DNA of 22,333 bases, taken from a virus. A model generated the notes under the pieces. The model was not told where the DNA came from. It made no database searches and was given only the letters and a program-made list of their open reading frames with translations. The stretch covers positions 1 through 22,333 of IMG/VR virus record IMGVR_UViG_3300020185_002465; one strand, written 5' to 3'. Within the stretch, counting starts at the first letter, position 1; every line of letters begins with the position of its first letter. The position numbers and the translations under genes are program-made. Below are positions 4,428 to 18,080 of this stretch, in pieces.

Positions 4428-5465
4428 TTATGTCACAGCGTTATTATCTGCTTCATCAAGTACCTTGTTAAACTCTCTTAATCGTTTAATTACAGATTGA
4501 AAATCAACAATTGTTGTCCATCTATCGATAAAGAATGTTAATGCACCTTCTACTCTGCCAAATGCATTAAGCACTTGTATAAGCACACCGAATGTAATTA
4601 ACTGTGCAAAGTAACTTGGTGCTAATATTACAATAGCAACATTACCTGCTAGTAATGAAAAGCCAGTCTGCCAGATACCAAAGCCCATATAGTAATTGAA
4701 CAGGCGATAATAGTTACGTTTGATTGATGCAAACATTGGAAACAAGTCTTCTGATAAACGTTCTTTGAAATCATCTTCGCTGTGTACCAATTTTTTACGA
4801 AACTTTGCTTCGACAACTTGGTTTTTATACTCTAAGCCTGGTAATTTGATACCCAGTAAGAATGATAATAGTGTGCCGCCTATACTCATAATAAGTGCAG
4901 CCCATACTAGAAAGCCAGGAATAATTTGACCATTCCAAACCGGTAGACCCTCACTTAATGTCCACAATACGGGTAAGAAAGCAGCAAGAATGAAAATCTT
5001 ATTGACAAAACCAGTGAATAGTGATTGTAACGTTTTACCAAAGATCATTAGATCCTCTTGAATACGCTGTGAACCACCTTCGATTTTCGCTGTTGAGTTT
5101 TCCCAACGCTTTAGATAGTAGTGTGTATTTGCTTCTCTCCAACGGAATGTAAATCGCTGTGTTTGCCATGTGGCATATGTTGCCATTGGTACATAGATAA
5201 GAAGTATTTCTAAGAAACTAGGAACAGTGGTTGTTTCGTCCATACTGAACGTGATAAACTCCCATAGTCTAACTGGATTGAAACTCCAGAACAGCTCCCA
5301 AAATCTTGCTTCTTGTAGTGTTTGTATAGCATCATAAAACTCGCGGTTCCATGCGTTATAATAAACTAGAATTTGAACATTATACCATCCAATAAATAAC
5401 AGCCAAGCAAGCATTAGCCAAGCATATAGAAATTGCGATGGAGTCCAAAAGAAACTCTTTAGCAT
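4428..5465 (-). CDS. sbmA-like: SbmA/BacA-like peptide transporter
   Basis: This 345-residue, multi-spanning inner-membrane protein shares long signature stretches with E. coli SbmA as I remember it. [14 protein letters not shown] corresponds to EGAAQRVQEDTMRF, and [20 protein letters not shown] to [20 protein letters not shown], followed by a conserved SEDD segment. [23 protein letters not shown] and a C-terminal [18 protein letters not shown] also align. SbmA/BacA imports peptide antibiotics and modified peptides using the proton gradient and lacks an ATPase domain; none is present here. The protein lacks roughly the first 60 residues of SbmA (about one membrane segment), but an AGGAGG ribosome-binding site 8 nt before the ATG supports this start. 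It lies 31 bp after the ClpP-fold protease gene and ends at a terminator. A phage copy is unexpected. Confidence 0.9.
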   Translation of the reverse strand: [345 protein letters not shown]

Positions 5466-6900: not shown

Positions 6901-7379
6901 TTGTTAATTCTAGCAATTTCTGCTTCCAGTTGTGTCTTTGTTTTAAATGGACCTATATATTCGTATGTATCTAGCGTTTCACGCTTTACACAGTATGCGT
7001 TCTTCCAACCTGCGCCTGGGAATGCAAGGCCATAATAACCTGCAGCATACAACACTTTTGATTTATCTGTTTTTGTATATATTGGTATGTTATTCTTATC
7101 AAGTCCTTTGTTAAATGCTTTATGCTTGGATGGATAACTTTCAACTTCATCTATATCTTTGCCATAATCAACACTTACAGTTTTCTTTACTTGTTTTGAT
7201 TCAAGAATTTTACGTCCAAATTTTAAGGTTAGAGAATCTAAATTCAGAGTTTCTACATCTACAGCATCTTGCATGATTACTTCAAAGTCAGAAGATTCAG
7301 TCTTACGGATAAGACCAAGTTTTATACCTGAGTCTTCTACAATCCAGAACTTATCTTTTATTATTTCAACTGTATACAT
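6897..7379 (-). CDS. Conserved hypothetical phage protein, 160 aa
   Basis: I cannot give this protein a function. The N-terminus (MYTVEIIKDKFWIVED, IKLGLIRKT) reads like a short beta-rich domain that I associate with hypothetical proteins of marine T4-like phages. The C-terminal segment (YIGPFKTKTQLEAEIARI) looks like a helix after a strand, and the centre has aromatic and Gly-rich residues (YYGLAFPGAGWKNAYC). It is soluble, with no signal peptide. It overlaps the HAD gene upstream by 14 bp and the 63-residue gene downstream by 4 bp, so it is translated as part of the operon led by the 5' nuclease. Confidence 0.72.
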   Translation of the reverse strand: MYTVEIIKDKFWIVEDSGIKLGLIRKTESSDFEVIMQDAVDVETLNLDSLTLKFGRKILESKQVKKTVSVDYGKDIDEVESYPSKHKAFNKGLDKNNIPIYTKTDKSKVLYAAGYYGLAFPGAGWKNAYCVKRETLDTYEYIGPFKTKTQLEAEIARINK

Positions 7380-8082
7380 TCTTTAAAATCTCATATGTTT
7401 CTTCCCATCTGGATACCTTATGGGTTCTACCTACGCCTTTTTTCTTAATTGCTTGTGCTAATGTGTAGTCATTTCCGCCATCAAAGATACCGTCACCGAA
7501 GAATATAATTATATCACTTTTATTGAAGTCTTTAAGTATCTGGCTCTTATCAGAACCAGTGGGACCTATATCAATACCAGTCTCACCACCCACAGTTGCA
7601 GTTACATCTTTAAATTCATCATCGTTGTAATTAATATACAATGCCATGTTTTCACGTTCATTGTATTCTTTATCCCACTTTACATACTCTGCACGTTGTT
7701 CAGTATTAGCACCCCGTCCTACAATTGAGAAGTTAACCATACCTGGACGTTCTTCAATGTGTGTACCGGTAAGATGTGGAAATTGTGTATTTTCTAACCA
7801 GTATCTTAATGTTTGATGCGCTGGCACTTTTATCTTCCATGGGTTATTATGTATATTTACACCCTTTTCCCATACAGAGTTTCCATTACAGTTATAGGAG
7901 CGTTTTACAGTATTGAATAGTTTATTACCTATCTGTTCAATTGTTTTAGGCGCATCACTTCCTGTTGCAAGATATACATTATTGGATTTACAGAACTTTA
8001 ACATGAAACGCAAGAAAGAGGCATTGATTGCCCCTCTACTTGGTGTTAGTGTTCCATCTACATCAAATATATATCTAAGCAT
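7366..8082 (-). CDS. HAD-superfamily phosphomannomutase-like phosphatase/mutase
   Basis: This protein has 238 residues from the ATG at 8082. HAD motif I is FDVDGTLTPSR (nucleophile D7, acid/base D9), immediately after that start. Further signatures are ERPGMVNFSIVGR in the cap, GGETGIDIGPTGSDKSQ carrying the catalytic lysine, and FFGDGIFDGGNDY (motif IV). The set and order fit the HAD-IIB group that includes eukaryote-type phosphomannomutases, which interconvert mannose-6-phosphate and mannose-1-phosphate. Sugar-phosphate phosphatases share the layout and are the alternative. An upstream ATG at 8157 would add 25 residues, but these lie inside the nuclease gene and precede the conserved start, so I chose 8082. 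It overlaps the nuclease stop by 8 bp. It might supply an activated sugar to the glycosyltransferase at 11492-12562. Confidence 0.82.
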   Translation of the reverse strand: MLRYIFDVDGTLTPSRGAINASFLRFMLKFCKSNNVYLATGSDAPKTIEQIGNKLFNTVKRSYNCNGNSVWEKGVNIHNNPWKIKVPAHQTLRYWLENTQFPHLTGTHIEERPGMVNFSIVGRGANTEQRAEYVKWDKEYNERENMALYINYNDDEFKDVTATVGGETGIDIGPTGSDKSQILKDFNKSDIIIFFGDGIFDGGNDYTLAQAIKKKGVGRTHKVSRWEETYEILKNVYS

Positions 8083-9788: not shown

Positions 9789-9871
9789 AATTTTTTCCTA
9801 ATATTCTCTAGTTGTTCCTCTGATGTAATACCACGATTATATTTCGTAACCTCGTCAAGTCCCCCAGGCAT
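9785..9871 (-). CDS. Possible 28-codon micro-ORF between queE-like and 60-aa genes
   Basis: A 28-codon frame starts at an ATG inside the end of the QueE gene, overlapping it by 17 bp. It ends in an ATGA overlap with the 60-residue gene. The predicted peptide (MPGGLDEVTKYNRG...) is protein-like, and the frame neatly fills the 66-bp gap left by the neighbours. There is no good ribosome-binding site, only a CGGA very close to the ATG. It may be a real micro-protein, a coupling device, or chance. Confidence 0.25.
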   Translation of the reverse strand: MPGGLDEVTKYNRGITSEEQLENIRKKL

Positions 9872-10727
9872 TTCCGAATAAAGATATGTGGAGTCTGGGT
9901 GTGAATCTCCATCCTTTTGCCATGCAGAGTTCCGCCACTTCTTGTACGTTGAGGGAATATTCTTCACTGCGTCCCCCCATCGGCATAAGATATACTGGAC
10001 ATTCCAACCCGGCATCCCGGTATTGCTGAACAGCCCTAGTAACTTCGTCAACATCGTTTCTATCAGCAACAACAAACTTGAGGTAAACGTCACTAGTGTC
10101 CAAAATATTATACTCATAAGCAATATTAGGCTTAATAGCATCATCCCAAGACTCGCCTGAAACGGATAGTTTCGGTGAGCAACTAAAAGTGACTTGAAGT
10201 TTTTCATTATTGTTGAAATAATTAAAGAGTTCATCGTAAAGATGCTGCGTAGTGTTGGTTTCGAAAGTGACATTTTTTAGATCCTGCATACGTGGGTGTT
10301 CGAATAATTCTACATACAATTTTTGCCAGGCAAGTAAAGGTTCACCGCCTGTTAGAATTAGATGAATATCTTGACCATTATCTTGTGTCCACTTTCCTTC
10401 TGGAGTTAAAGACAATAAATGATCAACTACTTCATCAATTGTTCTATCAAACACAAGGTGTTTAAACTCTGGGTAGATACTAGCATATGTATCACAACCT
10501 GTGTGAATAATAGGCAAGTCTTCAAACTTTTTTACTGTCTCATGTACGCCATCTTTGATAAGTTGTTCAACTTCTGGATTATAACGAGACTTTTCTCTAT
10601 CTTTATTTAGTCCAAAGTTTTGACAACGAAAGTTGCAACCAAAGGTACGTAGGAATACACTAGGTACTCCTACAAACTTGCCTTCGCCTTGCACACTATA
10701 AAATGCTTCACTATATCTTAGTTTCAT
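9855..10727 (-). CDS. queE: QueE-like 7-carboxy-7-deazaguanine synthase (radical SAM)
   Basis: This radical SAM protein has 290 residues from the ATG. QueE converts 6-carboxytetrahydropterin to 7-carboxy-7-deazaguanine. The N-terminus (YSEAFYSVQGEG...G-PSVFLRTFGCNFRC), GGEP (127-130, SAM binding), ETNTTQ, a CSPK segment and the C-terminal LHISLFGNAWGT are QueE hallmarks. The cluster motif is altered: C31-x3-C35-x2-F38, with Phe replacing the third Cys. C78 in HTGCDTY may supply the missing iron ligand. The ATG overlaps the FolE stop by one base (TAATG). A TTG at 10733 sits at better distance (5 nt) from AGGAG and would add two residues. The gene lies on one transcript with FolE. Confidence 0.85.
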   Translation of the reverse strand: MKLRYSEAFYSVQGEGKFVGVPSVFLRTFGCNFRCQNFGLNKDREKSRYNPEVEQLIKDGVHETVKKFEDLPIIHTGCDTYASIYPEFKHLVFDRTIDEVVDHLLSLTPEGKWTQDNGQDIHLILTGGEPLLAWQKLYVELFEHPRMQDLKNVTFETNTTQHLYDELFNYFNNNEKLQVTFSCSPKLSVSGESWDDAIKPNIAYEYNILDTSDVYLKFVVADRNDVDEVTRAVQQYRDAGLECPVYLMPMGGRSEEYSLNVQEVAELCMAKGWRFTPRLHISLFGNAWGT

Positions 10728-11425
10728 TAGCAACTAAACTCCTGTTGTAGTTTAATATTGTCCATGAATTCTTGTTTTACATGTGGATTATCAAAGAATG
10801 ATCCTTTAAGAACTGTTGTCTGGGTAAGTGAACTATGTGCCATAATTCCACGATTTTCACAGCAACCGTGTGTCGCTTGAATATAAACACCAACATCGTT
10901 TGAGCCTGTAGCATTACGGATTTCTCTGTTAATATCCATAGCAAGTTCCTCTTGTAGTGTCCCTCTTCGTGCACACCATTGTGCAATCCTCGTATATTTG
11001 CTAAGACCAATCAAAGTATCTGCCGCAATGATTCCAATATAAGCAATGCCATTAACTGGCTGATGATGATGCGAACATACACTGGTCAGTTCTGAACGGA
11101 CAACTAGCATGCCTTCATATTTGTCACCTGTAACATTATCTGGTTCATTTGGAAATGCAGTAGCAGGCGGAGGCGGATTATAACGTCCAGCCATAAGTTC
11201 ATTTATATACATCTTGGCTAACCGTCTACCAGTATCCATTGAGTTAGGATCGGTCCATCTATCGATTAGTAGTGAATCTAATACACCTTCAAACTTTTCA
11301 GTAAGTTCGTCTATCAGATTACATTTATCATTTTCATCTATTACTGCAGAGATATTATCTCCTGCCCAGTAACGTATGCCTTCTTTTTCTAAACGTGATT
11401 TGATAATTTCGGAAGTCTTTGTCAT
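10727..11425 (-). CDS. folE: GTP cyclohydrolase I
   Basis: This 232-residue enzyme opens GTP to form dihydroneopterin triphosphate, the first step of both folate and 7-deazaguanine synthesis. The active-site residues are visible. VCSHHHQP supplies C117 and H120 for zinc and H119. IGLSKYTRIAQWCARR (139-154) is the conserved helix, and QATHGCCENRG supplies H186 and the third zinc ligand C188. The length matches bacterial FolE. Because QueE follows with a one-base overlap and QueD and DpdA lie nearby, its likely job is feeding 7-deazaguanine synthesis rather than folate. It has a dedicated promoter at 11467-11495. The proline-rich RYNPPPPATAFPNEP insert (81-95) is longer than I expect at this position. 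Confidence 0.93.
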   Translation of the reverse strand: MTKTSEIIKSRLEKEGIRYWAGDNISAVIDENDKCNLIDELTEKFEGVLDSLLIDRWTDPNSMDTGRRLAKMYINELMAGRYNPPPPATAFPNEPDNVTGDKYEGMLVVRSELTSVCSHHHQPVNGIAYIGIIAADTLIGLSKYTRIAQWCARRGTLQEELAMDINREIRNATGSNDVGVYIQATHGCCENRGIMAHSSLTQTTVLKGSFFDNPHVKQEFMDNIKLQQEFSC

Positions 11426-11466
11426 ATACTATGTTCCTTTCTATTTTATTAATTTGCTTGTATATA

Positions 11467-11495
11467 ATATTACTATATATTAATTAGTGTGTCAA
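11467..11495 (-). promoter_or_regulatory. Sigma70-type promoter for folE-queE operon
   Basis: TTGACA (11495-11490), 17 bp, TAATAT (11472-11467). The -35 box overlaps the stop codon of the glycosyltransferase gene. The predicted leader to the folE ATG is about 35 nt. Confidence 0.75.
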
Positions 11496-12562
11496 GTATT
11501 ATTATTTAGGTGTTTTATTAAATCACCACCTGAATAAAAACTTGCAACTCTATTAATTTCTTCTTGTAGTATAGGTTGAATATCAGAATTCTTATTCATT
11601 TGGGTACGAATATATGCTTTAATATTCTCTATGTTCTTTTTTGTTGAATCCAATGAAGTAGTCCAGTCACTTGGATACTTGAATTGTTCACTCCACATTT
11701 CACTGTATGATAATCTATCTGGTACCATTGGCACACTTCCAACTACAATTCCTTCATACATTGATATACCTAATGTTTCTTGTAAGTTGGCACTAAATAC
11801 CATCTTTGATTTACTTAATAAGTCATGGTAATCTGGTTTGGATAACTCAAGTTCTTGACATTTGATGAACTTATATTCGGGCATTTGTTCAGCAATATAA
11901 TCAAAAACTTCTGGCTGTTTCTCAGGTGCGATACGATGTGGAAATAGTATTATGTCCTCTTTCGCTTTATTATTTTTATATGCACCAAGATCAGTTTCGA
12001 TATACTCCATCGGCCAACCCACTTGTCTAATAGAGTGAAGTAGTTGCCTGTCGATGTCACGATCATTATCCCAAAACGTATTTGTAAAGAGATCAATATG
12101 AAAGCGAGTAGCAAAGAAGTTATCATTGTAACAGTCATACATTGACATTTCTGCTTTTCGAACCCATGAGGCATCACCAATTAAGCGACCTAGAAAATCT
12201 TGGGGATCATAACTACCAGCATGCCATAATCCACCTATACGGATTTTTATCCCAAGTAATTCTGCCATATATTTCAACTGGATGACAGTGGGATTCCACG
12301 CATCAGTATAAAGAAAGTAATCGCCATCATGGATTTTACCATCACAGAACAATTTCGCTATTTGTTCTAACTGTGCGCTCTTATAGATATTTGTACCTCC
12401 AAAGTTAAGAAATGCACCCGGTGTAGTAGATGCTGGGATATCAGTTGGACCTTCAATCACATTAACATCAATGCCGTTGCTTCGTAACAATGTGGGGAGA
12501 TGTGTTTTCCACTGCTTAGTATAGCGAGATTCAACACTTTCCAAGTCTATAAGATATAACAT
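11492..12562 (-). CDS. GT-B fold glycosyltransferase
   Basis: This is a 356-residue protein. The C-terminal domain has the donor-binding features of GT4-like enzymes: LFPHRIAPEKQPEVF (206-220) resembles the nucleotide-binding turn, and E262-x7-E270 (ETLGISMYE) is the E-x7-E motif of retaining GT-B enzymes, followed by GSVPMVPD. The N-terminal half (SNGIDVNVIEG, FLNFGG, YTDAWNPTVIQLKYMAELLG) would bind the acceptor. There is no membrane segment. The gene lies between QueD and FolE, inside the 7-deazaguanine set, so a modified DNA base is an attractive acceptor. T-even phages glucosylate hydroxymethylcytosine with GT-B enzymes, giving a precedent. A role in cell-surface or protein glycosylation is the alternative. 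AAGGG lies 8 nt before the ATG. The 101-bp upstream gap holds a long palindrome. Confidence 0.8.
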   Translation of the reverse strand: MLYLIDLESVESRYTKQWKTHLPTLLRSNGIDVNVIEGPTDIPASTTPGAFLNFGGTNIYKSAQLEQIAKLFCDGKIHDGDYFLYTDAWNPTVIQLKYMAELLGIKIRIGGLWHAGSYDPQDFLGRLIGDASWVRKAEMSMYDCYNDNFFATRFHIDLFTNTFWDNDRDIDRQLLHSIRQVGWPMEYIETDLGAYKNNKAKEDIILFPHRIAPEKQPEVFDYIAEQMPEYKFIKCQELELSKPDYHDLLSKSKMVFSANLQETLGISMYEGIVVGSVPMVPDRLSYSEMWSEQFKYPSDWTTSLDSTKKNIENIKAYIRTQMNKNSDIQPILQEEINRVASFYSGGDLIKHLNNNT

Positions 12563-12633
12563 TCGTTTTGCCCTTTTAATGAATGTGTAGATATTCTAGT
12601 ACTAGTTATTAATATCCAAACCAGATACCATTA

Positions 12634-12657
12634 TTCATTACCATATATGGTAATGAA
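12634..12657. promoter_or_regulatory. 24-bp perfect palindrome upstream of glycosyltransferase gene
   Basis: The half-site TTCATTACCATA is followed by its exact reverse complement, a 24-bp perfect palindrome in the gap between the QueD and glycosyltransferase genes. As RNA it would form a 10-bp stem with a UAUA loop but has no U-run, so it is a weak terminator candidate. An operator for a dimeric DNA-binding protein, or a processing site, fits better. A second, shorter palindrome CTAGTACTAG lies at 12596-12605 in the same gap. Confidence 0.55.
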
Positions 12658-12663
12658 ATTCTT

Positions 12664-13131
12664 TTAGATATTGTATTCAATCAATGCTCCGTTTTCACCA
12701 TCTTCGGAGATTTCAATTTTGATATCTCGTCCGGGATATTTCGCAACGATTTGATTGAACAAATCATCAGACATCATTTCACATGATTTGTGATCAAGTT
12801 GAATAACATCATCTTTATACAAGTTCTCTAGCCAACGTTGAAATTGAATAAATTCAATGTCTCTATCGTTGTGTGTTACTTTGATTGCTACTCGAAAGTG
12901 AAATTGATGGCGATGCGGATATCCCAAGAATGACACATCATATTCATCACCTGTAGCAAGTGCAGGATCTTCTAGTGCTGCTGGATAGCAGTGAATACCT
13001 TCACGTTTAAATGTAACCCAAATCCAACGTTTTGCTGTTGTCATGGGTACATTAATAGTTGTACTTGTTTCTGTCAATTTAGCGTCCTCTTCTCTGTTGC
13101 GCCGTTTCATATAATCATAATAACTAGCCAT
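12664..13131 (-). CDS. queD: QueD-like 6-carboxytetrahydropterin synthase family protein
   Basis: The protein has 155 residues from the ATG at 13131. QueD converts dihydroneopterin triphosphate to 6-carboxytetrahydropterin with zinc. Family features are an HxH pair in YPHRHQFHFRV (H73, H75) with H47 as likely third ligand, IEFIQFQRWLENL (the usual DF-x-x-L region), LDHKSCEMM (112-120) and an SEDGENG segment near the C-terminus. It is a divergent version. The usual catalytic Cys a few residues before HxH is absent; the only cysteines are C48 and C117. The first 30 residues are extra relative to bacterial QueD. A TTG at 13140 could start three codons earlier, but the ATG overlapping the preceding stop by 8 bp is preferred. 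Context with DpdA, FolE and QueE supports the assignment. Confidence 0.78.
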   Translation of the reverse strand: MASYYDYMKRRNREEDAKLTETSTTINVPMTTAKRWIWVTFKREGIHCYPAALEDPALATGDEYDVSFLGYPHRHQFHFRVAIKVTHNDRDIEFIQFQRWLENLYKDDVIQLDHKSCEMMSDDLFNQIVAKYPGRDIKIEISEDGENGALIEYNI

Positions 13132-13303
13132 TAGTTTCAAGTTCTCTTTCCATTGCTAAAATTGATTGTTTCAATTTTAATTTTTTCATTTTAAGTTCAC
13201 TAACATCTAGTCTGAGATTATAATCTTTTTGTATCTTATCGTCAAGTGTCCTATGTTCGATTTTTAGTTGTTCTAGTCTTGCTATTTTTTTATCAATTTT
13301 CAT
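13124..13303 (-). CDS. YdcH/DUF465-like small coiled-coil protein
   Basis: This 59-residue, highly charged helical protein has the pattern KIARLEQLKIEHRTLDDKI followed by ELKMKKLKLKQSILAMERE. It closely follows the DUF465/YdcH layout: a helix with H-x-x-LD, then an L-KK-KL-LKD-like helix. The function of that family is unknown. AAGGA lies 6 nt before the ATG at 13303; a TTG two codons upstream abuts the ribosome-binding site and is unlikely. It sits between DpdA and QueD and overlaps QueD by 8 bp, so it could be an accessory subunit of the modification machinery, but nothing shows this directly. Confidence 0.72.
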   Translation of the reverse strand: MKIDKKIARLEQLKIEHRTLDDKIQKDYNLRLDVSELKMKKLKLKQSILAMERELETNG

Positions 13304-13318
13304 TTTCAATCCTTATTG

Positions 13319-14881
13319 TTATCCAAATAAAGCATCAACACTTTCTGGATGTTTATATTCTTTTTTCTTTCCTTTAACTGCATTAATATATTCTTCTGTC
13401 TTAACCCCCGCCTCTTCAAATTTCATAAAGTCTGGAGTAGTAGAAATATTTTGAACACGTGACCCTTCACACTTACGAAGAAAGGCTTTATAATTAGTAA
13501 GCATATCCATTGGATCTTTTGTATTAGGATCAAACAATACTTCAACAAACTTTGCAAAATATAAAACTCTATCTGGGACTACGTCTGATAGTACATTTGT
13601 TTTCCCTAAATTTATTGTATTAATGTCAATCTTGTCTCTTAACATCTCATACTCATGATCGAACCTACGGATTGCATCTTGCATCCCGCGTATATGATAT
13701 TCAGTATTATGTGCTTGAATAAGAATATATGAAAGGCTATCCCAACTTGATTTTGCTTCTTTTTTATTACGATTTAGCATTCCAGGTTGCATGTAGTTAA
13801 TATCACGCATGTTTAATCTTGAGCCAATTTCACCTTCATATAACCAGGGCTGGGTATCATTGGTAATATCTTGTCTCCAGTTTAACTTCTTAGTTTTGTA
13901 ACTCCAAGCGTTGCCATTCAAGTCGGGGTAGTCATAAGCCAATCCCTTTGACGCTGTAATGTAAGGAGACGCAGCATCAAATGAGATTGTAATGTTTGGA
14001 TTAACATGTTTTCTTAGTTGTCGTTGGATTGCAGTCAACATTGCACCCCATGGGAGAACGCTAATACCTAGCGTGTGAATCCAAACATCGTCTTGGTCTG
14101 CCTGACCAAGAAGACCATCATCACGTAAACGAATAAGTCTACGCAATAACAATTCAGCATCACCTGCATGATCACCAGCCATCGCATAACCTTCAAATGC
14201 TCTATCGCCATATACTGACTTGTCATTGAAGTGCTTGACCTTCTCATACCACTTTTCACTAGTGTCCCAATTAGAACCGTGTAGAGTGTTTAAGAACTTA
14301 GTCTTACCAGGTGTTCGGTGTTTAATAAAGTATTCATGATTAAAGATTGTCTTATCTACGCATTCTTCCCAGTTTTTAATACCGTTCTTATCACGGTACT
14401 GTGGCAAACATGCCCAACCTGGAATATCAAGTGTCATAGAGTAATCACAATATTCTTCAAGCCATGCCATAATACCATGCCGTGCATCATGCCAACTCCC
14501 ATCAGCATCATAGAATTTATTCCAATCAAGTTTCCACGCACCAGTACCAATCTGATACCCGCCTGAATCCCCAACTAGAACAGTGTTTTCACGGTCACGG
14601 TTCACAACCATGCCATCTTCGATTTTAGTTTTCTCTAAATCTAGTTCAGCATGACCAGCAGAATAAAGACCATGTGAATAATACACATAGCCTTTATCTT
14701 TGTCTAAGATGTTTAGACCATCTAGCCCATATTCAAACCCCTCAGGGATACGCTCAGGAGGAAACATGTCTGTCGTACCTGCATAATGCTGTGATACTTT
14801 GCGAACATAGAAGTTAGAGATAGCGGGTAGAAATACTGCATATCCGCTATTGATATTGTTTTTACCTAAGTCTTTTACCAT
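13319..14881 (-). CDS. dpdA: DpdA-like DNA guanine transglycosylase (TGT family)
   Basis: This is a 520-residue TGT-family enzyme. Landmarks from the ATG at 14881 are VGDSGGYQIGTG (103-114; the DSGG-F/Y-Q signature with general-base Asp105), a LDIPGWACLP segment for base recognition, NTLHGSN (199-205), GYAMAGDHAGDAE (232-244), HTLGISVLPWG and SFDAASPY, where D302 would be the nucleophile. Phage and island DpdA enzymes of this family exchange guanine in DNA for a 7-deazaguanine. I see no CxCxxC zinc motif of tRNA-type TGT. The chain is longer than a tRNA TGT (about 375), as DpdA usually is. An ATG at 14944 would add 21 residues overlapping the clamp gene and lacks support. It begins 4 bp after the clamp stop, so both share a transcript, followed by the DUF465-like and QueD genes. 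Confidence 0.88.
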   Translation of the reverse strand: MVKDLGKNNINSGYAVFLPAISNFYVRKVSQHYAGTTDMFPPERIPEGFEYGLDGLNILDKDKGYVYYSHGLYSAGHAELDLEKTKIEDGMVVNRDRENTVLVGDSGGYQIGTGAWKLDWNKFYDADGSWHDARHGIMAWLEEYCDYSMTLDIPGWACLPQYRDKNGIKNWEECVDKTIFNHEYFIKHRTPGKTKFLNTLHGSNWDTSEKWYEKVKHFNDKSVYGDRAFEGYAMAGDHAGDAELLLRRLIRLRDDGLLGQADQDDVWIHTLGISVLPWGAMLTAIQRQLRKHVNPNITISFDAASPYITASKGLAYDYPDLNGNAWSYKTKKLNWRQDITNDTQPWLYEGEIGSRLNMRDINYMQPGMLNRNKKEAKSSWDSLSYILIQAHNTEYHIRGMQDAIRRFDHEYEMLRDKIDINTINLGKTNVLSDVVPDRVLYFAKFVEVLFDPNTKDPMDMLTNYKAFLRKCEGSRVQNISTTPDFMKFEEAGVKTEEYINAVKGKKKEYKHPESVDALFG

Positions 14882-14885
14882 TATG

Positions 14886-15641
14886 TTAGTTTCCAGATTT
14901 TGCTGGCAAAATGTATTCATAAAGACCCATACCTGAATCAACATGAATTGCCATTGCCCCTTGATCAGAAATTTTTATACTCATAGATGAAGTATCACCT
15001 AGTCTCAAAATTGTTAAAACTGTTGAGAGTGGGAAACTCCAACCGGTACTAAGGGTTCCTTCTACATTTGAGGCAAATGTCAAACTTAATTTATCAGTTG
15101 ATGCATCACCGATATAAAACATTAAATCATTGCCATCAGTTTTTACTGTAAATAATGGATCATATGCGCTAAGAATACCAGCAAATGTTTGTAAATCTTT
15201 TACTGCTTTGGCTGAAGGAATTACTTCGACATCCCATTTTGCACCTTTAAAGTTTGCTGTTTTAATCTGAGCATCAACATAGCTGCTTGCAATAACACGA
15301 TAAGTTGAGTCAAATACACCTTTCATTGAGAACCCTAGTTCTGTTGGGACAACTTCACCATTTTGTTCTGAGGTTCTCACTGTGATATCAGCGCCGCGCA
15401 TTTTACCATCATCATCAATATTTTCATATGATAGATATCCATTAAGAACGCCCAATCGTCCCATACCAAACTTACCATCAAATTCGTCTACACGTTTATG
15501 CATTTTGGCACGAAGAACAACAGTTCTATCATCATCCATTGCATCTAGCATTGTACTTGTATCATCTGTTGTTACTTTTACTGCTTGAATAATACCAAGT
15601 GAGTGTGTGTGTTTTACAATATCTTTTAAAATGTCACGCAT
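14886..15641 (-). CDS. 45: DNA polymerase sliding clamp (T4 gp45-like)
   Basis: This 251-residue protein has the length and beta-rich composition of phage clamp subunits. GRLGVLNGYLSYENIDDDG resembles the early strand-turn region of gp45. AKAVKDLQTFAGIL and SFPLSTVLTILRLG look like the inner helices of the two half-domains, and the C-terminus (ALAIHVDSG-like strand, then LYEYILPAK) ends as clamps do. As a trimeric ring it would tether the family B polymerase encoded at 18735-21533. Sequence identity to T4 gp45 is low by eye, so the call rests on pattern and context. It has a dedicated promoter at 15669-15697 and is followed after 4 bp by dpdA, an arrangement that could link replication to base exchange. 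Confidence 0.75.
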   Translation of the reverse strand: MRDILKDIVKHTHSLGIIQAVKVTTDDTSTMLDAMDDDRTVVLRAKMHKRVDEFDGKFGMGRLGVLNGYLSYENIDDDGKMRGADITVRTSEQNGEVVPTELGFSMKGVFDSTYRVIASSYVDAQIKTANFKGAKWDVEVIPSAKAVKDLQTFAGILSAYDPLFTVKTDGNDLMFYIGDASTDKLSLTFASNVEGTLSTGWSFPLSTVLTILRLGDTSSMSIKISDQGAMAIHVDSGMGLYEYILPAKSGN

Positions 15642-15728: not shown

Positions 15729-18080
15729 TTAGAAAGTCCAAAGTGCACCCGCAGTAATAGAATTACTGGTGTCATAGTTTGATATATTCCGATTAAACCC
15801 TACCATCAAATTTAATTTGTCATTGATGGATTTATTAACATCTAGACCAATTCTGGTAGTGTCATATTCGTCAAAGTCCTTGCGAATACTTGCAGTAAAT
15901 ACATCATAATTAACATTCAAACCAACTGTTGGATAATTATATGTATCTTTCTCAGTTGCATAATCTAGAACCGCCAATACACTACCAGTTTCAGTGTAGC
16001 CTTGTGTTTTTCGTTGTCCAATTGTGTAACCAACGAATGGACGAAAATTGCCGGTTTCTTTTTCTAACATAAGACTAATATAATTATCGGTTGATGTAGT
16101 TTCACCAGCGGCTGAATAATCACCAACAACTCTAGAATATGAAATATCAGATGTGGTATGATTAAATGATGCTGTTAATTTTGTATCATTGTCATTTAAT
16201 GTTTTACCAATATCAAATCTTACTGCGTCTGAACTAATACTGCCATTACTATCGCTGCCGTTCATAGTTGTATTGACTTCATTATATTCTATGCCTGTAA
16301 CAATATTATCGGTACTTGAGATATCTTCAATTCCAATACTATAAACGGTTGATTTTGCGCTATAGCCATTATTCATTTTGTGTTCTGTTTTAGTAACTGT
16401 GATACCTTGCCCAATATCCATATTTCTATGAATATCTATTCCTATCAATTGTTCTACTTGGTCGACCCTGCCAACAACAGATTCAATATCACTGGATGTT
16501 GTGACAACATCATTTCTTACTAATGTTGTACTAGTTTCGTCACCATCGGTTACCATAACTGATCCATTATCATATGTTTCAGTAGTACGAACAAATGTGG
16601 TTGTTACAATATCCATTGGTGTTGTTACGGTTGTGATATCTTGCTTGGAAATAGTTTGCAAGTTATTGTCAACTGTAGAATCATATAGTGTTATATTATT
16701 TACTACTACTGGCAAAGTTGTACTTTGTGTTTCTGTTGTTGATGAAATAGTTTCATCAGAAGTACTTGTTACAACTGGCGCAGCCATACGTAATACACGA
16801 AAAGTTCTAATAACAGGAGAAACTTGTATCACTTCCTCTTCCACCACCGCCTCTTCTGCTGCAACCCGCGCCGCCTCTTCTGCGGCTGCCTCTTCTGCTG
16901 CTACACGTGCTGCCTCTTCTGCGGCTGCTACACGTGCTGCCTCTTCTTCCGCTGCAACCCGCGCTGCCTCTTCTTCCGCTGCAACCCGCGCTGCCTCTTC
17001 TGCTGCTACACGTGCTGCCTCTTCTGCTGCTACACGTGCTGCCTCTTCCTCCGCTGCTACACGTGCTGCCTCTTCTTCCGCTGCTACACGTGCTGCCTCT
17101 TCCGCAGCCTCACGCTCTGGTGCAGCAATTGCTGCCTCTGTTGCGGAACCAATATCTTCTACTGTCCAATCATTATCTGCGCCGCCACCGGAACCTTCTG
17201 AATCTTCAATAGCATCAAAGATAGATTCACCTAAAATATATGCGTAATTGGCGGTAAGAGTATCCCCTTCCTTGACATCAGTCCACAACCAACTGAGACC
17301 AATTGTATTATCGCCATTTCCATAGTTCAAGGAATTACCATCATCATCAGTATAAATTGTACCGTCATATGCATCTGCTTGAGTCGACCAATTTTGAATA
17401 CCTGCTGTTGTGTTAGTATCAGTAGTAGATACACCAATAGCGTAACCTGAAACGGTTGCTTCCCCGATTGCAATATTAGTATCTGGTATCCCTGAATAGC
17501 CAATAACATTATTAGTTAAATTACTATCTCCTGGATCTCCTTGTGAGTCAGGATCAGTGTGCTTACTATAATAGACTGTATCTGCATCAGCACCTGCTGT
17601 GATAGTTGTAGTTACATCAACGAATGTATTTCCGGAATCTAATTTAAACGTATTTTCTAATAACCAAGTGGATGAGTTGTTTACTAGACTTCCGTTCCAT
17701 GTAAGCGTATTAAGTTCATTTACTAAATCACTGCTTGCAGTGATATCGATCCTAGAAGATGAATTATTATTTCTATAATTTGTACCATCAATTTTGATAG
17801 ATTGCCCATCAAATGCAATGCCCGGAGTCAAAAAATCATATGATGTATTAAATGAACCGCCACCATCTGGATCGAACAGTATACCTGGTGAATTACTTTT
17901 ACCACTACCAAATGAGCCTGTTTGTCGATTGATGCCAACCTTCACTGACTCATTCTGTAATATTCCATCATTATCCAGTTGCATAAAGCTTGTATCTGCA
18001 ATCGCAGTTGTGCCTAACAAAAGTGATAATGTTGCACTGGGTAATGTTATTTTAAGTTGATTACTTACCGATATTGACAT
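15729..18080 (-). CDS. Autotransporter-like outer-membrane protein with Ala/Glu/Arg repeat
   Basis: This is a 783-residue surface protein. Residues 1-28 form a signal peptide (LSLLLGTTAIA, cleavage likely after AIA). Residues about 29-310 are Asn/Thr/Asp/Gly-rich and beta-rich, a passenger-like domain. About 325-415 is an alanine-rich helix with nine AARVAA repeats, like a TolA-type spacer. About 420-545 is Ser/Thr/Val-rich. About 548-783 shows alternating amphipathic strands (FRPFVGYTIGQ, YNYPTVGLNVNYDV, TRIGLDVNKSI, KLNLMVGFNRNIS) and ends ITAGALWTF. A C-terminal Phe is the usual BAM recognition signal of outer-membrane barrels. I infer a barrel with an exposed or periplasm-spanning passenger. 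It sits alone behind its own early-type promoter between polymerase and clamp genes. Lysogenic-type surface conversion, superinfection exclusion or adhesion are possible roles; a virion protein is less likely because of the signal peptide. Confidence 0.8.
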   Translation of the reverse strand: MSISVSNQLKITLPSATLSLLLGTTAIADTSFMQLDNDGILQNESVKVGINRQTGSFGSGKSNSPGILFDPDGGGSFNTSYDFLTPGIAFDGQSIKIDGTNYRNNNSSSRIDITASSDLVNELNTLTWNGSLVNNSSTWLLENTFKLDSGNTFVDVTTTITAGADADTVYYSKHTDPDSQGDPGDSNLTNNVIGYSGIPDTNIAIGEATVSGYAIGVSTTDTNTTAGIQNWSTQADAYDGTIYTDDDGNSLNYGNGDNTIGLSWLWTDVKEGDTLTANYAYILGESIFDAIEDSEGSGGGADNDWTVEDIGSATEAAIAAPEREAAEEAARVAAEEEAARVAAEEEAARVAAEEAARVAAEEAARVAAEEEAARVAAEEEAARVAAAEEAARVAAEEAAAEEAARVAAEEAVVEEEVIQVSPVIRTFRVLRMAAPVVTSTSDETISSTTETQSTTLPVVVNNITLYDSTVDNNLQTISKQDITTVTTPMDIVTTTFVRTTETYDNGSVMVTDGDETSTTLVRNDVVTTSSDIESVVGRVDQVEQLIGIDIHRNMDIGQGITVTKTEHKMNNGYSAKSTVYSIGIEDISSTDNIVTGIEYNEVNTTMNGSDSNGSISSDAVRFDIGKTLNDNDTKLTASFNHTTSDISYSRVVGDYSAAGETTSTDNYISLMLEKETGNFRPFVGYTIGQRKTQGYTETGSVLAVLDYATEKDTYNYPTVGLNVNYDVFTASIRKDFDEYDTTRIGLDVNKSINDKLNLMVGFNRNISNYDTSNSITAGALWTF
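16840..17110 (-). repeat. Tandem coding repeat (24-27 bp units, AARVAAEE)
   Basis: Nine units encode AARVAA followed by EE, EEE or AEE, so unit length varies as 24 or 27 bp, with one longer unit (AARVAAEEAAAEE). The plus strand reads as repeated GCTGCTACACGTGCTGCC-like blocks. All changes keep the frame, so copy number could vary without loss of the protein, altering the length of a helical stalk by about 1.3 nm per unit if fully helical. Confidence 0.92.

Follow-up and report, generated by a model that had tools for sequence, protein, structure and literature searches.

Gene content and organization of the cluster

The sequence of a large marine phage deposited in IMG/VR as IMGVR_UViG_3300020185_002465 (22,333 bases, taken over its full length and referred to below as the window) carries on its minus strand a cluster of genes encoding a DpdA-type transglycosylase, a PTPS/QueD-like protein named here PTPS2, a glycosyltransferase (GT), FolE and QueE (Table 1). 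From these genes we predict, with fair confidence, that the phage DNA carries a glycosylated 7-deazaguanine. The cluster genes named in a first-pass annotation of the window are real, and all of them lie on the minus strand at the places listed in Table 1.

The window proteins were searched against Pfam, PHROG and NCBIfam. Along the direction of transcription, the genes of a B-family DNA polymerase, a methyltransferase-like protein, a 783-aa repeat protein and a clamp-like protein precede dpdA, which is followed by a 61-aa open reading frame (ORF), PTPS2, the GT gene, folE, queE, small genes, an exonuclease gene and a gene for a HAD phosphomannomutase-like (PMM) protein. The order DpdA-PTPS2-GT-FolE-QueE recurs in 94 viral loci, many of them closely related, and the cluster is therefore not a chance assembly.

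Table 1. Features of the window considered in this study
Feature	Position	Strand	Basis
HAD phosphomannomutase-like protein	7366..8082	-	PF03332 E 6.2e-26
QueE, 7-carboxy-7-deazaguanine synthase	9855..10727	-	phrog_2076 E 1.3e-54
FolE, GTP cyclohydrolase I, which starts 7-deazaguanine synthesis	10727..11425	-	PF01227 E 6.1e-34
Predicted retaining GT-B/GT4 glycosyltransferase, QTMAN relative	11492..12562	-	fold, EX7E, kinship, dpdA linkage
PTPS2, PTPS/QueD-like protein, not QueD	12664..13131	-	phrog_17812, E 4.3e-33
Small ORF, 61 aa, between dpdA and PTPS2	13124..13309	-	ORF list
DpdA, putative DNA-guanine transglycosylase subfamily	13319..14881	-	TGT fold, DSGG-x-Q, later Asp
Clamp-like neighbour upstream of dpdA	14886..15641	-	replication module, outside pathway

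The family matches in Table 1 bear out the earlier naming of FolE and of a QueE-like protein, the NCBIfam matches of the latter lying well under the cut-off. The ATG of queE shares one base with the stop codon of folE. In 113 of 122 QueE frames, drawn from overlapping loci and including that of the window, 37-50 residues separate the second and third cluster cysteines; the QueE proteins of phage Phosso and of loci L143, L158 and L159 have the usual two.

Predicted structure of DpdA

As neither DpdA nor the GT has any Pfam, PHROG or NCBIfam match above the cut-off, the structures of both were predicted. The DpdA model (pLDDT 78.5, pTM 0.82) was compared with the PDB by Foldseek, and all 21 matches with E<=0.001 were tRNA-guanine transglycosylases (TGTs) or TGT subunits. 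In the top VIA match, 2ash_B, 304 residues were aligned with a Z of 20.5 and a root-mean-square deviation (rmsd) of 4.5. The predicted fold of DpdA is thus the TIM-barrel of the TGTs, which agrees with the earlier recognition of a TGT/DpdA-like enzyme. At the level of sequence, the DpdA profile found no PDB relatives beyond chance level, and the same holds for the GT and PTPS2 profiles.

The motif DSGG-x-Q (residues 105-110) and Asp302 are unchanged across 16 viral homologues of DpdA, and in a six-sequence alignment DSGG-x-Q and the later Asp are common to DpdA and two proteins of the DpdA2 type; presumably, the Asp of the motif and Asp302 are the catalytic aspartates. In hhalign comparisons, DpdA was paired with the corresponding protein of Acidovorax phage ACP17 at 92.5%, with that of Synechococcus phage BUCT-ZZ01 at 69% and with the TGT of phage X1 alone at 1.7%. 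The DpdA2-type proteins of these three phages belong to phrog_10773, with homologues in phages nt-1 and KVP40 that we take to be the published DpdA2. The genome of Vibrio phage 2.275.O holds a homologue of the window DpdA in the vicinity of genes for QueF, QueE, FolE and a transporter of the vitamin-uptake type. It is from gene context that we infer DNA, rather than tRNA, to be the substrate of DpdA.

Predicted structure of the glycosyltransferase

The model of the GT (pLDDT 77.8, pTM 0.79) had its best Foldseek match in MshA (3c4q_A, E 4.9e-7; VIA Z 21.2, rmsd 3.5, 314 aligned). Across the best 50 matches listed, Z ranged from 18.9 to 21.8, with many GT4 enzymes tying. Judged by this model, the GT is a retaining GT-B/GT4 enzyme, which upholds the earlier assignment to the GT-B class. 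The best 50 fold matches listed do not include the alpha- and beta-glucosyltransferases of T4, which excludes nothing. An EX7E motif (E262, E270) and the residues R210/K215 are invariant across 14 GT sequences; we take them to be the GT4 donor/catalytic motif, the Arg/Lys pair contacting the donor phosphate.

Another of the listed fold matches is a UDP-Glc tetrahydrobiopterin glycosyltransferase (5zes_A, Z 18.9, rmsd 3.5, 298 aligned), and the cluster itself contains FolE and a PTPS-like protein, both linked to pterins. These findings would suit a GT acting on a free pterin, in the manner of the cyanobacterial tetrahydrobiopterin glucosyltransferase, or on the free 7-deazaguanine base, its product being a small molecule or a pre-glycosylated base for DpdA. 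We consider this most improbable: the 5zes_A match is unspecific among many GT4s tying at Z 19-22, and the bacteria Devosia and Azospirillum keep dpdA and the GT with neither FolE nor PTPS recognised nearby. Moreover, we know of no precedent for a TGT inserting a bulky glycosylated base.

Linkage of the glycosyltransferase to dpdA

At least 592 IMG/VR stretches encode a relative of the GT, which is consequently common in nature. Two IMG/VR scans yielded 144 loci; a GT frame was found in 143 of them, L075 holding the gene edge only. DpdA is encoded in 129 of the 143, and the 14 loci devoid of it all have <2.3 kb upstream. All loci with >=6 kb upstream (115/115) carry DpdA and likewise PTPS2, although most viral GT loci are related, so that the 115 are not independent. 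Where both flanks measure >=6 kb, 72/72 loci carry DpdA, PTPS2 and QueE, 70/72 FolE and 1/72 a true QueD. After removal of GTs >90% identical, 36 non-redundant loci remained; DpdA, PTPS2, QueE and the clamp-like gene occur in every one of them, and FolE in 34.

The gene order varies. PA5oct-like phages have dpdA-GT-PTPS2, ACP17 has DpdA2-GT-PTPS2-QueE, X1 has GT-DpdA2-PTPS2-QueE and BUCT-ZZ01 has DpdA2-PTPS2-GT, while Sinorhizobium phage Phosso has PTPS2-GT-FolE with dpdA about 170 kb away. In ACP17, Pseudomonas phage Ettore, Phosso, BUCT-ZZ01 and X1 the GT adjoins PTPS2 or dpdA. The GT is paired with the window-type DpdA in PA5oct-like phages, marine viruses and Phosso, and with the DpdA2 type in ACP17, BUCT-ZZ01 and X1; it therefore keeps company with DpdA proteins of two subfamilies.

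In a single scan of 84,980 genomes of bacteria and archaea, 11 GT relatives were found, seven of them in loci with DpdA. The other four comprise a locus with PTPS2, QueD, QueE and FolE, two fragments <5 kb (one with FolE) and a protein of Hahella described below. In three bacterial genomes the GT lies close to dpdA. Devosia (L156 6075-9038) has dpdA, a Vut_1-family gene (PF02592 E 1.1e-5, just under the cut-off) and the GT in this order; Azospirillum (L157 7484-10685) has a Vut_1-family gene (PF02592 E 2e-7), the GT and then dpdA on the opposite strand; and Methylobacterium (L155 3-3428) has a dpdA truncated at the end of the contig, PTPS2 and the GT, together with a Vut_1-like membrane protein that has no Pfam match. 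FolE, QueE and PTPS2 were not recognised within the Devosia and Azospirillum loci. These three contigs possibly represent a bacterial glyco-deazaguanine island. Genes that look recombinase-like by eye lie near dpdA and the GT in Devosia and Azospirillum.

The GT homologues thus occur almost solely with dpdA, the co-occurrence by which the first-pass annotation had proposed to check its idea, and no surface-glycan setting was seen for the GT in the loci examined. A role of the GT as part of a surface-glycan locus was accordingly dropped in view of the dpdA linkage in these loci.

The same linkage bears on the alternative that the DNA contains an unsugared 7-deazaguanine (7-carboxy-7-deazaguanine (CDG) or the plain base) and that the GT acts elsewhere, on hydroxymethylated pyrimidines, protein or a surface glycan. 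Some room is left for it, as a thymidylate-synthase-family gene is present in 10 of 13 GT records. This family includes pyrimidine hydroxymethylases, and the gene is perhaps an ordinary thymidylate synthase. A hydroxymethylpyrimidine acceptor is, however, weakened by ACP17, X1 and BUCT-ZZ01, which have the GT, PTPS2 and DpdA2 but no PF00303 match. The strict linkage of the GT to dpdA in viral loci, the retention of dpdA and GT without recognised synthesis genes in Devosia and Azospirillum, and the activity of a kin enzyme on a 7-deazaguanine nucleoside (see below) also speak against an unsugared base, which we regard as unlikely.

Kinship with tRNA-queuosine mannosyltransferases

The Hahella relative of the GT is a tRNA-queuosine mannosyltransferase (QTMAN; PF12038 E 5.6e-57), an enzyme whose donor is GDP-mannose. 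QTMAN alpha-mannosylates queuosine in tRNA (PMC12518689). For a comparison without chosen targets, the GT profile was run against 185 genomes of Hahella's class, which contain at least 1,769 GT4-type (PF00534) matches, and found nine matching places in eight genomes; QTMAN is present in 9 of the 185. Eight of the nine places are PF12038 QTMAN genes, one of them stop-interrupted, and the ninth is a contig-end fragment that also counts as QTMAN, its score being 232 bits for a QTMAN profile as against 45 for that of the GT.

The GT profile matches 9/9 QTMANs (eight with E<=2e-5, one with 0.02) and 0/30 other GT4s; the latter are top-scoring PF00534 proteins and not a random draw. Conversely, the QTMAN profile matches 13/13 phage GTs with a median of 48.7 bits, and a profile of the other GT4s matches none of these 13. 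By hhalign, the phage GTs align to QTMAN at 98.4% (E 6.7e-15) and to the other GT4s at 54.7% (E 1.2e-4). The string PDRLSY occurs in 13/13 phage GTs, in 6/9 more distant relatives, in 2/9 QTMANs and in 0/30 others. In a midpoint-rooted tree of 61 sequences, in which the Hahella protein appears twice, phage GTs and QTMANs are split from the 30 other GT4s with a support of 1.0 (0.86 across the midpoint root), and the phage-type GTs form a clade (support 0.96). As judged by profiles, hhalign and the tree, the closest cellular relatives of the GT are the tRNA-queuosine mannosyltransferases, which provides a precedent for a 7-deazaguanine carrying a sugar. Since the QTMAN_N domain (PF12038) has no match in the window GT or in six further GTs from phages and metagenome-assembled genomes, we did not file the phage protein as a QTMAN.

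This kinship, together with the TGT fold of DpdA, would also be expected if the pathway were directed at tRNA; DpdA would then be a TGT for phage or host tRNAs, and the GT a viral QTMAN mannosylating a queuosine-like base in them. Such a target seems very unlikely to us. The cluster is located within a replication module, beside a DNA polymerase and the clamp-like gene, and the GT also teams with the DpdA2 type; in phage nt-1, which has a DpdA of that type, a modified form of guanine is reported for the DNA, at a level of about 0.1% (PMC12028318, PMC6884629).

PTPS2 is distinct from QueD

The first-pass annotation had taken the PTPS2 gene for queD, and this identification did not hold. The protein belongs to phrog_17812, a family annotated as of unknown function, and has neither a Pfam nor an NCBIfam match; a search of the 22-kb window with PF01242 (QueD) gave zero matches. 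Its similarity to phage QueDs by hhalign is weak (probability 78.5%, E 1.7e-5, 44 columns). QueD has a Cys with a catalytic role, which stands ahead of the HGY motif in 11/11 phage QueDs; a Cys ahead of His-x-His is absent in 22/22 PTPS2 proteins. A [FW]DH pair is likewise found in 11/11 phage QueDs, while the window PTPS2 has LDH just ahead of its SCE motif; [DN]H occurs at this place in only 5/22 PTPS2 proteins, with a spacing unlike that of QueD. His-x-His, SCE and one Glu are invariant in 11 PTPS2 homologues. By hhalign and motifs, PTPS2 belongs among the distant relatives of PTPS and has an altered active site.

A separate PF01242 QueD gene is carried by 7/7 related contigs >=175 kb and by 6/6 isolates, and by 0/6 of the shorter contigs tested. 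In ACP17 and BUCT-ZZ01 PTPS2 and QueD are both inside one cluster, and in contig G004 QueD falls in the same locus as PTPS2 (L063). The idea that PTPS2 supplies the QueD activity was consequently dropped, as it has no PF01242 match and no Cys and its relatives have a separate true QueD. Ettore (OR805294.1, 40422-43151; L122, L127) encodes two PF01242 proteins besides PTPS2.

PTPS2 is also present in phages devoid of the GT, e.g. in Cellulophaga phage phiST near QueD, QueE and FolE. Cui et al. reportedly predicted, in 2023, a CDG decarboxylase, DpdL, from phages of the phiST kind, and PTPS2 might be this enzyme.

QueC and the identity of the base

QueC had been reported as missing from this DNA. 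It is indeed not among the scanned genes of the window, the whole of which was not searched with PF06508. Contig G009 (67.7 kb), a near-identical relative of the window with 100% identity in both GT and DpdA, has a gene for a diverged PP-loop protein resembling QueC (PF06508 E 8.4e-4, under the cut-off), so that the virus group of the window is not wholly devoid of QueC-like proteins. Relatives of this QueC-like protein are present in 6 of 17 records, G009 included, and in 0/6 isolates. In locus L135 (961-2943), from a near-identical relative of the window, a diverged QueC-like PP-loop protein ends in CxxCWWC, and behind it comes a radical SAM protein that matches QueE in part.

Among 19 GT-carrying records, 15 gave no match to PF06508, including Ettore, Phosso, ACP17 and BUCT-ZZ01. 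The weak match in X1 is an NAD-synthase-type protein. Xanthomonas phage PhiXhv-15 encodes a Gat-QueC fusion (PF06508 E 5.5e-51), and contig G006 a diverged QueC-like protein (29.6 bits versus a cut-off of 22) in addition to PTPS2. PTPS2 and an evident QueC were not met together in the five isolates with PTPS2, as would be expected if PTPS2 had replaced QueC on the CDG branch; contig G006, which encodes PTPS2 alongside a QueC-like protein, reduces this exclusion to a tendency. The probable substrate of PTPS2 is CDG or its product, which would place the enzyme on the branch served by QueC in other phages. In these five isolates the base is likely to be CDG or the PTPS2 product rather than preQ0, while in the window preQ0 is possible.

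In the PhiXhv-15 locus (L120 3328-10903), the neighbours of a distant GT are the Gat-QueC fusion, a deacetylase of the PIG-L type and a protein that gave two matches of the GNAT type, which suggests an amino-sugar variant. In this locus and in L159, as in the GT-less phages, DpdA was sought by profile and a simple motif; neither locus gave a DpdA, other subfamilies and distant positions not having been searched.

Sugar supply and base salvage

The phosphomannomutase-like HAD protein noted earlier near the cluster is PMM-like by its PF03332 match, but the gene is lineage-specific, being present in 11 of the 36 non-redundant loci and in 0/6 isolates. The latter count led us to drop PMM as an obligate partner; in the window it could feed GDP-mannose synthesis. 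Sugar genes were counted within about 10 kb of the GT, with Pfam run on one member per family. At least one of four families occurs in 28/36 loci: besides PMM, these are an NAD-dependent epimerase/dehydratase with a GDP-mannose-dehydratase match (13), a CTP_transf_like nucleotidyltransferase (12) and a UDP-Glc/GDP-Man dehydrogenase (8). None was found in seven loci having PTPS2 or DpdA but no GT. The sugar genes fit a sugar-transfer pathway but differ by lineage.

A phosphoribosyltransferase (PF00156) is encoded in 34/36 non-redundant loci and could salvage the guanine freed by DpdA.

Neighbouring genes

The clamp-like protein has no Pfam match above the cut-off; its relative in Phosso is annotated as DNA polymerase III sliding clamp beta, and a sliding clamp is its probable identity. 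Also within the replication module, the 783-aa protein (15729-18080, minus strand) contains an Ala-Ala-Arg-Val-Ala-Glu-Glu repeat tract; by eye, its start resembles a signal peptide and its C-terminus a beta-barrel, and it has no Pfam match. At 4428-5465 (minus strand) the phage encodes an SbmA/BacA-like transporter (NCBIfam NF009036 E 7.8e-87, under the curated cut-off). In related loci, a protein that appears cupin-like by eye (L226 12833-13393) follows the GT in 16/36 cases, and a 172-aa protein (L177 6428-6943) precedes PTPS2 in 25/36; neither has a Pfam match.

Proposed pathway

Based on our observations, we suggest the following order of steps. GTP would be converted to CDG by FolE, by a QueD whose separate gene would lie beyond the window, and by QueE; PTPS2 would then act on CDG or a CDG product. 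DpdA would exchange some of the guanines in DNA for the resulting 7-deazaguanine, and in many relatives the phosphoribosyltransferase might recycle the guanine set free. Finally, the GT4 enzyme would move a sugar to the base with retention of the anomeric configuration. In the window lineage the donor would most likely be GDP-mannose, with the help of PMM, and the sugar is likely to be mannose, an idea that gains from the QTMAN kinship and the presence of PMM. The modification would likely protect the DNA from host nucleases.

Several of our results weigh against this pathway or parts of it. The QTMAN profile also matches 25 of the 30 other GT4s, if more weakly (median 20.5 bits, best 45.1), and QTMAN aligns to these GT4s over its length (hhalign 99.1%). 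The homology of the GT to QTMAN lies mainly in the C-terminal donor-binding half, at about residues 155-310, and thus speaks for a GDP-mannose-like donor rather more than it does for a common acceptor. The acceptor of QTMAN, the cyclopentenediol of queuosine, has no identified counterpart in the cluster. The four sugar families are absent from 5/6 isolate and 7/8 genome-contig GT loci; sugar genes are thus scarce in isolates, and mannose is not general. In 6/6 GT-less phages DpdA was unrecognised within 12 kb of PTPS2. Finally, if PTPS2 were DpdL, it would give plain 7-deazaguanine, whose C7 offers no obvious O- or N-acceptor.

The sugar-bearing 7-deazaguanine put forward in the first-pass annotation thus gains from the dpdA linkage and the QTMAN kinship, while the supply of the sugar proved to vary by lineage. 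A broader formulation, which to us has as much for it as against it, is that the DNA of many large phages and some bacterial mobile islands contains a glycosylated purine. They would make a 7-deazaguanine without canonical QueC by means of a new PTPS-fold enzyme and install it by DpdA; a counterpart of QTMAN acting on DNA would then mannosylate it or attach another, lineage-specific sugar, possibly as a C-glycoside at C7.

If a glycosylated 7-deazaguanine is indeed formed, PA5oct-like Pseudomonas phages, Phosso, ACP17 and BUCT-ZZ01 would hold sugar-bearing 7-deazaguanine in their DNA, and genes annotated as 'hypothetical' in cultured jumbo phages would be explained. The pathway would join two systems so far kept apart, the 7-deazaguanine modification of phage DNA and the glycosylated queuosine of tRNA. 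It would also open a new way to label DNA and be relevant to the escape of such phages from restriction. All glycosylated DNA bases known to us are pyrimidines. The parts of the literature covered by our search do not claim that phage DNA contains a glycosylated 7-deazaguanine, which does not show the absence of such a claim from print.

Comparison with known systems

The components of the cluster come from known families, and its novelty is in their combination, in the GT and in PTPS2. With the dpd pathway of phages 9g, nt-1 and CAjan it shares FolE, QueE, a DpdA of predicted TGT fold and, in the longer relatives and the isolates, a separate QueD. Unlike that pathway, it has a DpdA without a family match, a GT4 glycosyltransferase near dpdA, and PTPS2, QueC not being evident in the five isolates with PTPS2 that were searched.

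QTMAN, a GT4 with a PF12038 N-domain, is the closest cellular relative of the phage GT and like it is assigned to the retaining GT4 enzymes. The phage enzyme differs in having no QTMAN_N match and in sitting with DpdA. QTMAN acts on a 7-deazaguanine nucleoside within a nucleic acid, and we propose that the phage GT does likewise.

In T-even phages, glucosyl-hydroxymethylcytosine is a modified DNA base capped by the GT-B enzymes alpha-gt and beta-gt. The system proposed here follows a similar logic, as a GT-B enzyme would cap a modified DNA base with a sugar. It differs in that the base would be a 7-deazaguanine inserted by transglycosylation, whereas the T-even hydroxymethylpyrimidine is made as a nucleotide.

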